Assembly (NCBI RefSeq): GCF_004634425.1
Contig: NZ_SBJL01000003.1
Coordinates: 248,001-312,000 of the forward strand
Origin: Vitreimonas flagellata
Lineage (GTDB): Bacteria; Pseudomonadota; Alphaproteobacteria; Caulobacterales; Aquidulcibacteraceae
Direction of reading: 5' to 3'
DNA length: 64,000 nucleotides
Below, one piece after another: positions 38,074 to 63,428 of the stretch (its first letter is position 1; each line of letters begins with the position of its first letter). The notes under the pieces are model-generated. The model saw nothing but the letters and a program-made list of their open reading frames with translations. It was not told the DNA's origin and did not search any database. The translations under genes were made by a program, and so were the position numbers.

Positions 38074-38088
38074 AGTCCTTCCTTTATG

Positions 38089-38209
38089 CTCCCCCGCGTG
38101 CGGGGGAGCTGTCGCGCAGCGACTGAGGGGGCGAGAAGCGCGCACATCACTGGCGGACTTTCCCCCTCCGGCTCGCCCCGCTCACCACCTCCCCCGTAAA
38201 CGGGGGAGG
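38089..38209 (+). repeat. type A multi-hairpin repeat, copy 1
   Basis: About 121 bp. An outer hairpin CTCCCCCG-CGTG-CGGGGGAG starts it and CCTCCCCCG-TAAA-CGGGGGAGG ends it. Between them are a short stem GTCGC-GCA-GCGAC and a longer stem pairing GAGGGGG with CCCCCTC. Four further copies occur at 41712 and 48004 (reverse orientation) and 55144 and 63295 (same orientation). Confidence 0.88.
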
Positions 38210-38215
38210 AGTGTC

Positions 38216-41696: not shown

Positions 41697-41711
41697 GTTG
41701 TGCGCTCCAAT

Positions 41712-41818
41712 CTTGCCCCGCTTGCGGGGGAAGTGGATCGCGCGCAGCGCAAGACGTAGGGGGCGGTGGCGCGCTCCTCAGTCAGCTTCGCTGACAGCTC
41801 CCCCATGAATGGGGGAGC
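41712..41818 (-). repeat. type A multi-hairpin repeat, copy 2
   Basis: About 107 bp in reverse orientation. Ends are CTTGCCCCG-CTTG-CGGGGGAAG and GCTCCCCC-ATGAAT-GGGGGAGC. The inner short stem reads (reverse strand) GTCAGC-GAA-GCTGAC, a different sequence with the same pairing as GTCGC/GCGAC in copy 1. It separates two leftward hotdog thioesterase genes. Confidence 0.85.
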
Positions 41819-41835
41819 ATTAAGTGAGGGCGCGC

Positions 41836-47281: not shown

Positions 47282-47370
47282 GGCGGAAGCATGCCGCGTC
47301 TCGTCATCCGCTTCAATCGCAGGTGAAGGGGCTTCGGGCGGGGTTCGCTTGCGCTAGAGTGCGCCCGCTC

Positions 47371-49986
47371 ATGGACGCCCGCACGCCCTCCCTGCCGTCG
47401 CCGTTCGCGGATTGGTTCGCCGCGCGCGGCTGGAGCCCGCGTCCGCATCAATTGGAATTGGTGCGCCGGGCTGAGGCAGGGTTATCGACGTTGCTGATTG
47501 CGCCCACGGGTGCAGGCAAGACGTTGGCCGGCTTTCTGCCGAGCTTAATTGAGCTTGCGCCGCGCGCCGAGGATGGGCTGCGGCGGCCACATCGTTTGCA
47601 CACGCTCTATGTGTCGCCGCTGAAGGCGCTGACGACGGACGTGGCGCGCAATCTCGATACGCCTGCGAGCGAGATGAAACTTAATCTGCGGATCGAGTCA
47701 CGCACTGGCGATACGCCGCCGCACAAGCGCCAGCGCCAGCGCGCGCATCCGCCCGACATTCTGCTGACGACGCCGGAGCAATTGTGCCTGCTGATCGCGT
47801 CCGAGCACGCGCGCGTGTTTTTCGAAGATTTGCAGGCGGTCGTGATCGACGAAATCCACGCGCTCGCGCCGACAAAGCGCGGCGATCTGCTGGCGCTGGC
47901 GATGGCGCGGTTGCAGCGTTGGGCGCCCGGACATCGGCGCGTGGGCTTGAGCGCCACGGTCGCGGATGAGGAAGGGCTGGCAAGGTATTTGTTGGGTTCC
48001 AATCCTCCCCCGCACGCGGGGGAGGTGCTGAGCGCAGCGAAGCGGAGGGGGAAGGCGGGCACGCCCCCCTCAGTCTCGCGCGATACGCCCGACAGCTCCC
48101 CCGTGAACGGGGGAGCGTTACAAAGCGTTGTCGTCAAAGCGCCGCCCGGGGCGCAGCCAGTGGTGGATGTTTTGGATTCCGATGCGCGAATTCCCTGGGC
48201 GGGGCATACGGCGCGGCATGCGTTGCCGGAAGTGTATGCGGCGATCAAAGCGGCAAAGCTGGCTTTGGTGTTCGTGAATACGCGTGCGCAGGCGGAAATG
48301 ACGTTTCAGGAGTTGTGGCGCATCAATGATGATGCGTTGCCGATCGCACTGCATCACGGCTCGCTCGACGTGGCGCAGCGGCGCAAGGTTGAAGCGGCGA
48401 TGGCGCGCGGGGATTTGCGCGCTGTGGTGTGCACCTCCACGCTCGATCTCGGCATCGATTGGGGCGACGTCGATCTGGTGATCCAGATGGGTGCGCCAAA
48501 GGGCGCCGCGCGTTTGGTGCAACGCATCGGCCGGGCCAATCACAGATTGGACGAACCATCACGCGCGCTGCTGGCGCCGAGCAATCGCTTTGAAGTGTTG
48601 GAGTGCCGCGCCGCGCAAGAAGCGGTGAAGGAGGGCGCGATGGATGGCGCCGAGCCGCGCGTTGGCGGGCTGGATTGCTTGGCGCAACATATAATGGGTT
48701 GTGCCTGCGGTGAGCCATTTGATGCGGATGAGCTTTATGCAGAGGTCGTTTCGACCGAGCCGTATGCGGCCCTACCACGCCCGCAATTCGACCGCGTCCT
48801 CGATTTCGTGGCGACGGGCGGGTACGCGCTGCGCTCCTACGACCGCTACAAGCGGATCGTGCAGGATCTGGCTACGGGCCGTTGGCGTGCGCGCAATGCT
48901 ACGATTGCGCAGCAACATCGGATGAATGTTGGCGCGATCGTTGAGTCCGAGATGCTCGATGTACGCTTGGCGAACCGGGTTCAGGCGTCACGACCAGGCA
49001 CGCCGGCGAGTGAAGGCCCACGCCCGCTGATGCCGGGACGGCGACTGGGACAGATCGAAGAATACTTCATCGAAGGCTTAGCGCCCGGCGACACGTTCTT
49101 GTTCGCCGGCGAGGTGCTGCGTTTCTTGAGCGTGCGCGATACGGATGCGTTGGTGGTGCGCGCGCCAGGTGCGGAGAACCCGAGCATTCCGTCCTACGCC
49201 GGCGGCAAATTTCCACTCTCGACGTTCCTTGCCGATCGCGTGCGGCGCATGCTCGATGAGCCGAAGCGCCAAAAGCTTCTGCCGCAACAGGTGCGCGATT
49301 GGATCAGGATGCAGAAGAAGCGCTCTGTGGTGCCCGCGCCTGAGGAAATGCTGGTCGAGACGTTCCCGCGCGCCGCGAAGCATTATCTCGTCTGCTACCC
49401 CTTCGAAGGCAGGCTATCGCACCAGACATTGGGGGTGCTGGTTACGCGCCGACTGGAGCGCGCCGGCAAGAAGCCGATGGGCTTTCTCGCCAGCGAATAT
49501 GCGATGGCGGTGTGGGCGCTGGAGCCGATGGACGATGTTGATCTCGAAGTCTTGTTCGATGAGGACATGCTGGGCGACGATCTGGAAGCCTGGCTCGCGG
49601 AATCGACTTTGATGAAGGCGACGTTCTCAAAGTGCGCCGTGATCGCCGGCATGATCGAGCGGAAATTGCCGGGTGCGGCGCGCAAGACGGGCCGGCAAGT
49701 CACGTTCTCGACCGACCTGATCTATGACGTGCTGAAGCAATATGAGCCCGATCATATCTTGCTCCAGGCGGCGTTCGCGGATGCGGGCGAGGGCTATCTC
49801 GATATCAAGCGCGTGGGCGCGCTTTTGCGGCGCGTGAAGGGGCGGCTCGTGCACCGCGCATTGCCGCACGTGTCGCCGTTTGCCGCACCGGTGATGCTCG
49901 AAGTGGGTCGGGTCGGAGTACAGGGCGGCGCGGACGAGGCCGTGCTGGAGGATGCCGCGTCGCTGATTGCCGAAGCGATGAGCTGA
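47371..49986 (+). CDS. ligase-associated DNA damage response DEXH-box helicase (Lhr-like)
   Basis: An 871-residue superfamily 2 helicase of the TIGR04121/Lhr group. Motif I is APTGAGKT, motif II VVIDEIHAL, motif III LSATVAD; motifs V-VI are LDLGIDWGDVDLVIQMGAPKG and VQRIGRANH. A long C-terminal region (about 470-871) is typical of Lhr core proteins. Residues about 212-249, just after motif III, are encoded by a type A palindromic repeat and have no match to the helicase fold; the frame stays open. The gene lies upstream of an alkylsulfatase gene and pdeM, its usual partner. The ATG at 47371 is the best start. Confidence 0.92.
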   Translation: MDARTPSLPSPFADWFAARGWSPRPHQLELVRRAEAGLSTLLIAPTGAGKTLAGFLPSLIELAPRAEDGLRRPHRLHTLYVSPLKALTTDVARNLDTPASEMKLNLRIESRTGDTPPHKRQRQRAHPPDILLTTPEQLCLLIASEHARVFFEDLQAVVIDEIHALAPTKRGDLLALAMARLQRWAPGHRRVGLSATVADEEGLARYLLGSNPPPHAGEVLSAAKRRGKAGTPPSVSRDTPDSSPVNGGALQSVVVKAPPGAQPVVDVLDSDARIPWAGHTARHALPEVYAAIKAAKLALVFVNTRAQAEMTFQELWRINDDALPIALHHGSLDVAQRRKVEAAMARGDLRAVVCTSTLDLGIDWGDVDLVIQMGAPKGAARLVQRIGRANHRLDEPSRALLAPSNRFEVLECRAAQEAVKEGAMDGAEPRVGGLDCLAQHIMGCACGEPFDADELYAEVVSTEPYAALPRPQFDRVLDFVATGGYALRSYDRYKRIVQDLATGRWRARNATIAQQHRMNVGAIVESEMLDVRLANRVQASRPGTPASEGPRPLMPGRRLGQIEEYFIEGLAPGDTFLFAGEVLRFLSVRDTDALVVRAPGAENPSIPSYAGGKFPLSTFLADRVRRMLDEPKRQKLLPQQVRDWIRMQKKRSVVPAPEEMLVETFPRAAKHYLVCYPFEGRLSHQTLGVLVTRRLERAGKKPMGFLASEYAMAVWALEPMDDVDLEVLFDEDMLGDDLEAWLAESTLMKATFSKCAVIAGMIERKLPGAARKTGRQVTFSTDLIYDVLKQYEPDHILLQAAFADAGEGYLDIKRVGALLRRVKGRLVHRALPHVSPFAAPVMLEVGRVGVQGGADEAVLEDAASLIAEAMS
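48004..48116 (-). repeat. type A multi-hairpin repeat, copy 3, inside the helicase gene
   Basis: About 113 bp in reverse orientation. Ends are CCTCCCCCG-CACG-CGGGGGAGG (48004-48025) and GCTCCCCCG-TGAA-CGGGGGAGC (48095-48116). It is wholly inside a coding sequence and read through as PPPHAGEVLSAAKRRGKAG followed by a Pro/Ser-rich stretch to VNGGAL. The inner short stem is partly degraded compared with the intergenic copies. Confidence 0.88.
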
Positions 49987-52007: not shown

Positions 52008-52772
52008 ATGCCGATGCTTTCCCGACCTGCGCCCAAGGCCCAGCGCCCGCCCAAGCGGACGGTGCGGGCTTTGCCGCCTTTGGCGATCGTGGGGCCGCAT
52101 GTCGAGGCGCGCATTGGCGACACGCTGGTGACGGCGTTGCCGGACGGCGCGTTGTGGATCGGCGAGGCGAAGACGCTGATCGTCTCCGATTTGCATTTGG
52201 AGAAGGGTTCGGCCTTTGCGCTGCGCGGGCAGATGCTGCCGCCCTACGACACGCACGCGGCGTTGGTGAAGCTCGGCAAGCTGATCGACGCGATGGCGCC
52301 AGATATTGTGGTCTCTCTGGGCGATAGTTTTCATGATGGCGGCGGCGTCGCGCGGATGGCGGCGAGCGATCGCGATTTGCTGCAAAGCATGATCGGTCGC
52401 TGCGATTGGATTTGGGTGGAGGGCAATCACGACGGGCGCGCGCCGGAAGTGCTGGGCGGCGTCGTGCGTGACGTGCTGCACCTGGGCTCGCTTGTGTTAC
52501 GGCATGAGCCGACGGAAGACGCGGCGCCCGGCGAGATCGCGGGCCATTTGCATCCGTGCGCAAAAGTGAGTGGCCGCGGGCGTTCCGTGCGGCGGCGGTG
52601 CTTTGCAACTGATGGCGCGCGCTTGGTGATGCCGGCGTTCGGCGCGTTCACCGGCGGGCTCAATGTGTGCGACGACGCGTATGCTGAGATTTTTCCCGAC
52701 GGCGTGACGGCTCTGGTGCTCGGCAAGGATCGCGTGCTGCCTGCGCCAATGGAGCGGCTGCTCAGCGATTAA
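52008..52772 (+). CDS. pdeM: ligase-associated DNA damage response endonuclease PdeM
   Basis: A 254-residue calcineurin-like metallophosphoesterase of the TIGR04123 type. Motifs are SDLHLEKGS (D61, H63), VSLGDSFHDGG, VEGNHDGR and IAGHLHPCAK, the complete dimetal set. PdeM acts with a DNA ligase, exonuclease and Lhr-like helicase in a repair system; the helicase gene is here, two genes upstream. The last codons (MERLLSD and stop) lie in the first unit of a 23-bp tandem triplication, so the C-terminus may vary between strains. The ATG at 52008 is used; a second ATG is two codons later. Confidence 0.9.
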   Translation: MPMLSRPAPKAQRPPKRTVRALPPLAIVGPHVEARIGDTLVTALPDGALWIGEAKTLIVSDLHLEKGSAFALRGQMLPPYDTHAALVKLGKLIDAMAPDIVVSLGDSFHDGGGVARMAASDRDLLQSMIGRCDWIWVEGNHDGRAPEVLGGVVRDVLHLGSLVLRHEPTEDAAPGEIAGHLHPCAKVSGRGRSVRRRCFATDGARLVMPAFGAFTGGLNVCDDAYAEIFPDGVTALVLGKDRVLPAPMERLLSD

Positions 52773-52825
52773 TGGAGCGGCTGCTCAGCGATTAATGGAG
52801 CGGCTGCTCAGCGATTAATGGAGCG
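52749..52825 (+). repeat. 23-bp tandem repeat, three units plus part
   Basis: Three identical 23-base units start at 52749, 52772 and 52795, each beginning ATGGAGCGGCTGCTCAGCG; a partial unit (ATGGAGCG) follows at 52818. The first holds the last seven codons of pdeM and most of its stop codon. 23 is not a multiple of 3, so later units are not read in the same frame. The partial unit merges with the left end of type B copy 3. Confidence 0.95.
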
Positions 52826-55053: not shown

Positions 55054-55143
55054 TTCTGTTGCTCTGAACTCAGCGCGGATGCGCCCATGCCCAGGCTCTT
55101 ATGGGCGCCGCCGCCGAGAGAGGCAACGCCGTTTGCTTGTTGT

Positions 55144-55242
55144 GCTCCCCCGTTTACGGGGGAGCTGTCGCGTTAGCGACTGAGGGGGCGAGGGGCTTGC
55201 CAATTTGCGGCGGGAATTACCCCCTCCCGCAAGCGGGGGAGG
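55144..55242 (+). repeat. type A multi-hairpin repeat, copy 4
   Basis: About 99 bp. Ends are GCTCCCCCG-TTTA-CGGGGGAGC and CCTCCCGC-AA-GCGGGGGAGG. The inner stem is GTCGC-GTTA-GCGAC. It lies in the 198-bp gap after the PodJ-like gene and before tauE; the rest of that gap shows nothing else. Confidence 0.87.
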
Positions 55243-63259: not shown

Positions 63260-63294
63260 ACGGGACGACTCCGGTCCTATGGAGGGCTCAAACT

Positions 63295-63410
63295 GCTCAC
63301 CCGTTTACGGGGGAGCTGTCAGCGCGCGCAGCGCGATGACGGAGGGGGTGTTTCTGGAGTTTCCCCCTCCGTCTCGCTTCGCTCGCCACCTCCCCCGCAC
63401 GCGGGGGAGG
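63295..63410 (+). repeat. type A multi-hairpin repeat, copy 5
   Basis: About 116 bp. Ends are GCTCACCCG-TTTA-CGGGGGAGC (one mismatch) and CCTCCCCCG-CACG-CGGGGGAGG. The inner stem is longer and more irregular (GTCA to TGAC). It ends 18 bases before the thiolase ATG; its GGGGGAGGAG edge could serve as, or add to, the ribosome-binding region. Confidence 0.86.
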
Positions 63411-63428
63411 AGTTAGAAGGGTAAGAAA

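Follow-up and report, generated by a model that had tools for sequence, protein, structure and literature searches.

The window examined here is the whole 64,000-nucleotide stretch from Vitreimonas flagellata (G000:C3:248001-312000, in a genome of 3.9 Mb), in which a palindromic repeat, referred to as type A, lies in frame within a ligase-associated DEXH helicase gene of the Lhr-Core type. G000 denotes the source genome of the window, G001 onward the genomes compared, and L numbers the loci. The helicase gene (47371-49986, forward strand) encodes a product of 871 aa from the ATG at 47371, with an alternative GTG start upstream at 47323. The protein scored 1062.5 bits for TIGR04121 (ligase-associated DEXH helicase), for which the curated cut-off is 850. 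It displays the Pfam domains DEAD (residues 24-198), on the N-terminal side of the repeat block, and Helicase_C (residues 292-389), on its C-terminal side, together with WH_Lhr and DEAD_assoc. The nearest solved structure, by sequence as well as by fold, is the Lhr of Mycobacterium smegmatis (5v9x). The reading frame is uninterrupted through the repeat block.

The repeat spans 113 nt (48004-48116, forward strand), position 48004 opening codon 212 and position 48116 falling within codon 249, and would contribute residues 212-249 (PPPHAGEVLSAAKRRGKAGTPPSVSRDTPDSSPVNGGA) to the protein. It is bordered by two outer hairpins, each with a perfect 9-bp stem and a 4-nt loop, namely CCTCCCCCG-CACG-CGGGGGAGG at 48004-48025 and GCTCCCCCG-TGAA-CGGGGGAGC at 48095-48116. 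Between these are found an inner stem, with the left arm GAGGGGG at 48045-48051 and the right arm CCCCCTC at 48065-48071, and a third small hairpin at 48073-48093, all on the forward strand; the outer hairpins and the inner stem were assigned from the sequence and the consensus structure. The RNA fold of this copy reached -75.3 kcal/mol with a z-score of -5.5 against 200 shuffles, the favoured fold being one long stem that pairs both outer hairpins. On the coordinates, the integrity of both outer hairpins and the in-frame placement, these results agree with the first-pass annotation of this DNA.

Other elements of that annotation needed amendment. It had placed the block directly after helicase motif III, which is slightly off, as LSATV occupies residues 193-197 and the block begins 15 residues further on, past a helix at residues 200-208. 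In the AlphaFold2 model, with a mean predicted local distance difference test score (pLDDT) of 78.6, residues 211-250 have pLDDT values of 31-35 and lie between this helix and a strand at 253-256. Disorder-promoting residues make up 87% of the block, compared to 65% of the rest of the helicase and a mean of 79% in type A open frames. According to the model, the block is probably a floppy loop. The inner stem had been described as partly decayed, yet it is intact, and the decay concerns the third hairpin (-5.8 kcal/mol). In type A copies without a known coding role, the third hairpin ranges from -1.7 to -13.8 kcal/mol. The suggestion that selection on RNA structure is relaxed once the repeat is coding did not hold, since the third hairpin averaged -7.7 kcal/mol in four coding copies and -9.0 kcal/mol in 18 others with overlapping ranges (two of 24 copies, one being the coding UvrC copy, were left unparsed).

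Dispersed type A copies and their placement in genes

When the 123-nt helicase block was used as a BLASTN query against its own genome, 65 pieces were recovered at E<=10, a count that includes the query block and, for the same copies, pieces on the opposite strand, and 31 of them at E<=2.8e-6. DNA identity to the best other copies, some of which are intergenic, amounts to 76-82% over 113-134 nt. Near-complete copies span 104-135 nt; 22 of them could be aligned, revealing hairpin 1, the inner stem and hairpin 2 in common, as well as terminal inverted repeats with the consensus AACTCCTCCCCCG...CGGGGGAGCAGTT, a trait of miniature inverted-repeat transposable elements (MITEs). The outermost AACT/AGTT is absent from many copies, including that of the helicase. 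The variable third hairpin is visible in the sequences, RNAalifold does not predict it, and the covariation term of 0.06 means that covariation lends no support to the consensus structure. A type A match at E<=1e-5 was found in 33 of 61 genomes, with at most 14 candidates scored per genome, while Rfam returned no family at gathering score in window positions 37000-64000. Four further copies are present in the window, at 38086-38213 (reverse strand, G000:C3:286086-286213), 41708-41822 (forward), 55143-55230 (reverse, partial) and 63291-63415 (reverse). All of them lie outside the genes called by a simple codon score and are intergenic, as had been claimed.

Among 30 type A loci of G000 (L001-L030), five are in frame within domain-bearing proteins, namely Lhr, PdhC, a second E2 acyltransferase, MutL and UvrC, the last four being further open reading frames of the kind that the first-pass annotation had proposed to seek. 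All five copies are oriented alike with respect to their gene; Pfam domains served to assign the names PdhC, MutL and UvrC. The PdhC copy (residues 131-169) is located between Biotin_lipoyl (45-119) and E3_binding (175-210), that of the second E2 (residues 114-155) between Biotin_lipoyl (37-107) and E3_binding (231-265), and that of MutL in the interval from the end of DNA_mis_repair (341) to the start of MutL_C (445). The UvrC copy falls inside the span of UvrC_RNaseH_dom (405-635), which covers 159 profile positions over 231 residues and thus seems to bridge an insert. In L012 and L020 the open frames place the repeat near the N-terminus and these copies may be intergenic, and some other spanning open frames have a base composition unlike coding sequence. 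L274 (G022:C2:53304-53420) is a type A repeat in frame in an open frame of 1863 residues, which we take to resemble the large subunit of glutamate synthase. A type A match (E 0.009) was also noticed at G000:C1:580453-580791, inside a second lipoyl-domain protein near pdhC, perhaps PdhB, and the same place in G005, G006, G009 and G022 gives type A matches in a lipoyl-domain protein as well; to judge from these matches, the linker of this protein may be another occupied site.

The position of copies relative to genes was assessed in 579 kb, made up of 212 kb from G000, 167 kb from G005 and 200 kb from G023, where the simple codon score called 182, 152 and 187 genes, respectively, with 84-87% of the DNA coding. 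Families A-D are represented there by 10 copies in G000, 8 in G005 and 5 in G023. Two of the G000 copies, within Lhr and MutL, and one of the G005 copies, within Lhr, are wholly intragenic; G023 has none of this kind. Three of 23 copies wholly within genes is far under the expectation at 85.6% coding (binomial 2e-14), a figure that is no genome-wide rate estimate, as the scanned regions were centred on Lhr and that of G000 reached MutL. One more copy per genome, three in total, overlaps a gene end, and for the Lhr copy of G023 this is due to its in-frame stops. The possibility of a repeat adapted to coding was also considered and rejected, the forward frames of 23 type A copies being open in 42% of cases vs 50% in dinucleotide shuffles, and the reverse frames in 36% vs 49%. 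Given that type A frames are not specially open, tolerance rather than design is the simplest account.

Linker contents within and beyond the genus

The Lhr linker, defined as the stretch between LSAT[VIL] and [IV]PWxGH, is 38-41 residues long in G002, G004, G008, G019, G021, G026 and G027 and 51-89 residues long in 19 other readable congeners (those of G012, G015, G016 and G028 were unread and uncounted). The block is indeed missing from relatives, as G004, G019, G021, G026 and G027 have 40-41 aa between the anchors vs 76 in G000. A C4/G4 hairpin (stem of at least 8 with a C4/G4 run) is present in the Lhr linker of 17 of the 26 readable genus genomes, including G000 and G023. The same 17 linkers match another gene's linker or the genomic type A set (17/27 readable, i.e., the 26 of the genus and G036). 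Their contents vary among congeners, with NPPPHAGEV..., EPSPPSRGRGQGEGG..., PPPLEGRGLGGG... and STLSLAERV... types. The Lhr site holds different families in different species, which points to a recurrent landing site and not to one lucky insertion, an aspect overlooked in the first-pass annotation. By eye, the Lhr linker of G001 (L040) contains a longer inverted repeat of another kind (CCGCGGGTATTCAGACACGCA...TGCGTGCCTGAAGGCCCGCGG), and G011, a close relative of G001, has half of a C-run repeat there.

Cross-gene repeat matches were obtained for the UvrC linker in 20/26 genomes (19/25 of the genus plus G036), for the PdhC linker in 11/22, ten of them by the cross-gene and hairpin criteria both, and for the MutL linker in 4/29 (4/28 of the genus). 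Certain matches are short, e.g., 25 nt for UvrC of G010. Unread and uncounted were the UvrC linkers of G001, G012, G015, G026 and G028, the PdhC linkers of G003, G008, G012, G013, G016, G024, G026 and G028, and the MutL linkers of G015 and G028. Hairpins reach 5.2 per kb in the linkers of the four genes (85 in 16,323 bp), compared to 0.08 per kb (7 in 87,890 bp) in the neighbouring 450-bp flanks, i.e., a density 65 times higher.

The near-sister genomes G000, G005 and G023 share 94-98% identity in Lhr, MutL and UvrC and 91-95% in PdhC once linkers are removed. In the order G023/G000/G005, the linker content is A/A/other for Lhr, A/A/B for UvrC, none/A/B for PdhC and none/A/A for MutL. At E<=1e-5, with no more than 14 candidates scored in each genome, G005 yields 15 family B matches; G000 and G023 yield none. 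When every candidate of G000 and G023 was scored with an approximate family B query, G000 gave two weak matches and G023 remained without any. G000 and G005 are joined by the concatenated tree (0.945), the PdhC tree (0.992) and the UvrC tree (0.737), while G000 and G023 are joined by the Lhr tree (0.876; 0.952 in the large Lhr tree) and the MutL tree (0.676). As the PdhC tree unites G000, carrying A, with G005, carrying B, two families are found at one site within that pair. In the Lhr block of G023 (L032), single-base differences within C/G runs introduce two in-frame stops before the frame is regained at the end; UvrC of this genome has comparable compensated shifts but no stops. The G023 assembly, a single contig, is 92% complete, and its indels at C/G runs could stem from sequencing errors. 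As a separate observation, G005 is the sole member of the trio with family B in number and the sole one with Y1_Tnp (PF01797) matches (L258, L259).

The survey of named genomes retained the best 80 of at least 594 candidate loci and is therefore biased to close relatives; anchors were readable in 77 of the 80. Among these 77, the linker has at least 55 residues in 16, including Brevundimonas, Phenylobacterium, Hyphomonas, Mesorhizobium and Pseudaminobacter records, and 39-53 residues in 61. The C4/G4 hairpin occurs in 12/16 of the long linkers vs 0/61 of the short ones. In a tree of 106 loci, from which L061, L062, L064 and L140 were left out as likely duplicates of first-set genomes, 102 had a readable state and 36 were expanded. 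Fitch parsimony required 13 changes vs 29.8 in shuffles (standard deviation 2.2). The expanded state has shifted many times, with inheritance accounting for part of its distribution.

Both out-of-genus blocks tested proved to be dispersed. The Lhr block of L126 (Mesorhizobium sp. LHD-90, which belongs to another order) is matched by 97 pieces of its own genome, and its family has 3-19 pieces in each of five other genomes tried. The element of L116 (Hyphomonas) has 7 matches in its own genome and 5 in that of L107, helicase copies included, and no match in two Caulobacteraceae-type genomes tried. The Lhr linker of L107 carries ~43-53 nt from the start of type A and, after them, an L116-type element (83% over 125 nt), and BLAST matches revealed no type A 3' half after that element; by its sequence, the composite looks as if caught during replacement. 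The short Lhr linker of G008 retains CCGCAAGGTGGCGGGGG, a scar resembling the 3' end of family B.

Explanations for the repeat-bearing linkers

We consider it likely that mobile palindromes land widely, that selection spares those in disordered linkers and that the turnover of families brings the same small set of linkers into use again. Type A would then be a short palindromic element (~104-135 nt), probably non-autonomous and mobile. Its gene-landed copies would mostly be removed by selection, with the survivors lying in frame in inter-domain loops or linkers; in Lhr the site would be the loop that connects the helix closing the first RecA-like domain to the next strand. We propose that such copies are tolerated because C/G-run palindromes mostly encode a Pro/Gly/Ser/Glu/Arg-rich, disorder-prone peptide, which, if translated, may be nearly neutral. 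As new families spread in a lineage, the same permissive linkers of Lhr, UvrC, PdhC and, less often, MutL would be reused, the old repeat being replaced by, invaded by or deleted ahead of the new one. The earlier idea of a mobile hairpin tolerated as coding sequence, as in the Rickettsia palindromic elements (RPEs), thus gains support from the dispersal of the repeat, its absence in congeners and its in-frame copies; its mobility is an inference.

Another account, to which we would give slightly less than an even chance, is that repeats strike all genes at random and survive in loops, with no site preference; it is in effect a sub-case of the explanation just given. It would suit the five in-frame copies of G000, situated between or inside domain boundaries drawn by Pfam, the depletion of copies from genes and the predicted disorder of the block. 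However, across 212 kb and 182 predicted genes only Lhr and MutL wholly enclose a copy, and the Lhr of G005 has another family; from these chosen linkers, a site preference may be suspected but is not proven. It seems rather unlikely that each linker received one ancestral insertion, later gene-converted by the dominant repeat family of the genome, with no repeated landing. Hairpin arms with C-runs and G-runs are common to the families and could seed recombination, the site is constant and the state clusters on the tree, as the Fitch changes indicate, but most readable named loci have short linkers, PdhC is empty in G023 while holding A in G000 and B in G005, and other repeat families fill the Lhr loop in other taxonomic families and in another order.

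It is very improbable that the helicase gene is a pseudogene or split at the repeat. Apart from the two stops in the orthologous block of G023, which could be read in this way, the frame of G000 is open, the C-terminal domains are conserved, and 15 congeners besides G000 and G023 have a repeat there by the hairpin criterion, with stops flagged, among readable linkers, only in that of G023. The chance that the block is an ordinary low-complexity linker merely resembling a repeat is negligible. Its peptide is rich in Pro, Ser and Gly, and other linkers of these proteins are of low complexity too, but the DNA matches over the length of the repeat, with both hairpins perfect, refute this reading, and the excess of hairpins over the flanks also disagrees with it.

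Several observations weigh against the proposed landing of mobile palindromes and reuse of linkers. The four genes were chosen for the repeats that they contain in G000, and occupancy is consequently ascertainment-biased. Without the trio, the hairpin criterion gives 14/23 for Lhr, 16/22 for UvrC, 9/19 for PdhC and 1/25 for MutL, counts that include at least two doubtful hairpins (UvrC of G025 and PdhC of G010). The length of the MutL and PdhC linkers is hardly altered, which is replacement-like rather than a plain insertion, and in the close pair of L075 (short) and L054 (type A) the repeat flanks also differ, making allele exchange possible. No obvious target-site duplication was seen in five groups of filled vs short linkers, whose flanks have diverged, and the search for an autonomous partner, confined to PF01797 (Y1_Tnp), gave 0 matches in G000, 0 in G023 and 2 in G005. 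Mobilisation of type A by a REP-associated tyrosine transposase (RAYT) is thus unsupported in its own genome. L092 and L094 carry the L126 family with 9 matches each despite short Lhr linkers, so the presence of a family does not entail a filled site. The gene trees disagree on the branching of the trio. A replacement of type A in the Lhr of G005 is suggested by the concatenated tree and is not borne out by the Lhr gene tree, and the type A copy in Lhr of G000 and G023 may simply reflect shared inheritance. In addition, the Lhr gene of G023 is either broken or misread by sequencing.

A bolder reading, which we regard as doubtful, is that the Lhr, UvrC, PdhC and MutL linkers are true sockets, so that an incoming family preferentially enters and replaces the resident coding palindrome. 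If this were true, the linker of a repair protein would be rewritten wholesale at each spread of a new repeat. In an even bolder form, occupants might be kept for their tuning of folding or repair activity, exerted through the extra tail or through a hairpin formed in the mRNA where two domains meet. With some 25 readable congeners and further lineages, these linkers offer a natural series in which repeat DNA recurs as protein-coding sequence at one position. The series allows one to ask what share of bacterial protein linkers is repeat-derived and how fast it turns over, and whether the prominence of repair genes among published intragenic repeats reflects tolerance or benefit.

Relation to known repeat systems

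RPEs are treated in the relevant parts of two sources as elements of ~105-150 nt, found between genes and in frame in conserved protein genes (Ogata 2000, 2002; PMC2229807, PMC10969869). Type A resembles them in length (113 nt in the window, 104-135 nt for near-complete copies) and in its in-frame location in Lhr, PdhC, the second E2, MutL and UvrC, a likeness of size and placement. In contrast to RPEs, type A is GC-rich and its host is related to Hyphomonadaceae, as judged by the nearest named helicases among the best 80 of at least 594; moreover, in the scanned stretches the majority of copies lie outside genes, and one site holds different families across species. As for intragenic repetitive extragenic palindromes (REPs) of the GTAG/CGTC type, many have been described in genes of DNA replication and repair (excinuclease ABC proteins, recBCD, ligase), linkers or loops were suggested to tolerate them, and recB of two Xanthomonas has different REPs at about the same site, according to the portion of a 2013 study devoted to them (PMC3733652). 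Type A shares with these the occurrence of palindromes within genes, repair genes among them. No GTAG, CTAC, CGTC or GACG was found within 8 nt of 33 hairpins in 20/23 copies, the search pattern matching no hairpin in the other three. Unlike these REPs, type A showed no tag in the copies that could be checked and is larger and composite, and the sharing of sites by several families extends to many congeners and several genes.

The Caulobacter CIR elements (~110 bp) comprise two hairpin arms and a linker, contain GANTC and, in the part of PMC2229807 that describes them, are stated not to be found inside genes (Chen and Shapiro 2003). Type A is likewise alphaproteobacterial, ~110 bp long and made of two hairpin arms joined by a linker, but several copies are inside genes and GANTC occurs in 0/23. 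Since neither the GTAG/CGTC tag near the checkable hairpins nor GANTC was found, type A was not filed under REP or CIR. Bacterial MITEs such as ERIC, NEMIS and RUP are characterised, in sections of PMC2229807 and PMC10969869, as short, dispersed and with inverted ends. Type A, being short and dispersed, appears MITE-like by its inverted ends as read from the sequence, yet no target-site duplication or partner transposase was found for it (the flanks have diverged, and only PF01797 was searched).

The open-access literature searched here gave RPE, MITE and REP precedents, and no paper on the present elements was recognised in it. In-gene palindromes are already known as RPEs and intragenic REPs, with repair genes noted before, and by analogy type A may work like both. 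No report was found in that literature of one set of linkers being filled by different families in many congeners. As a minor observation elsewhere in the window, positions 52748-52825 contain a head-to-tail 23-nt unit (AATGGAGCGGCTGCTCAGCGATT) in at least three copies.

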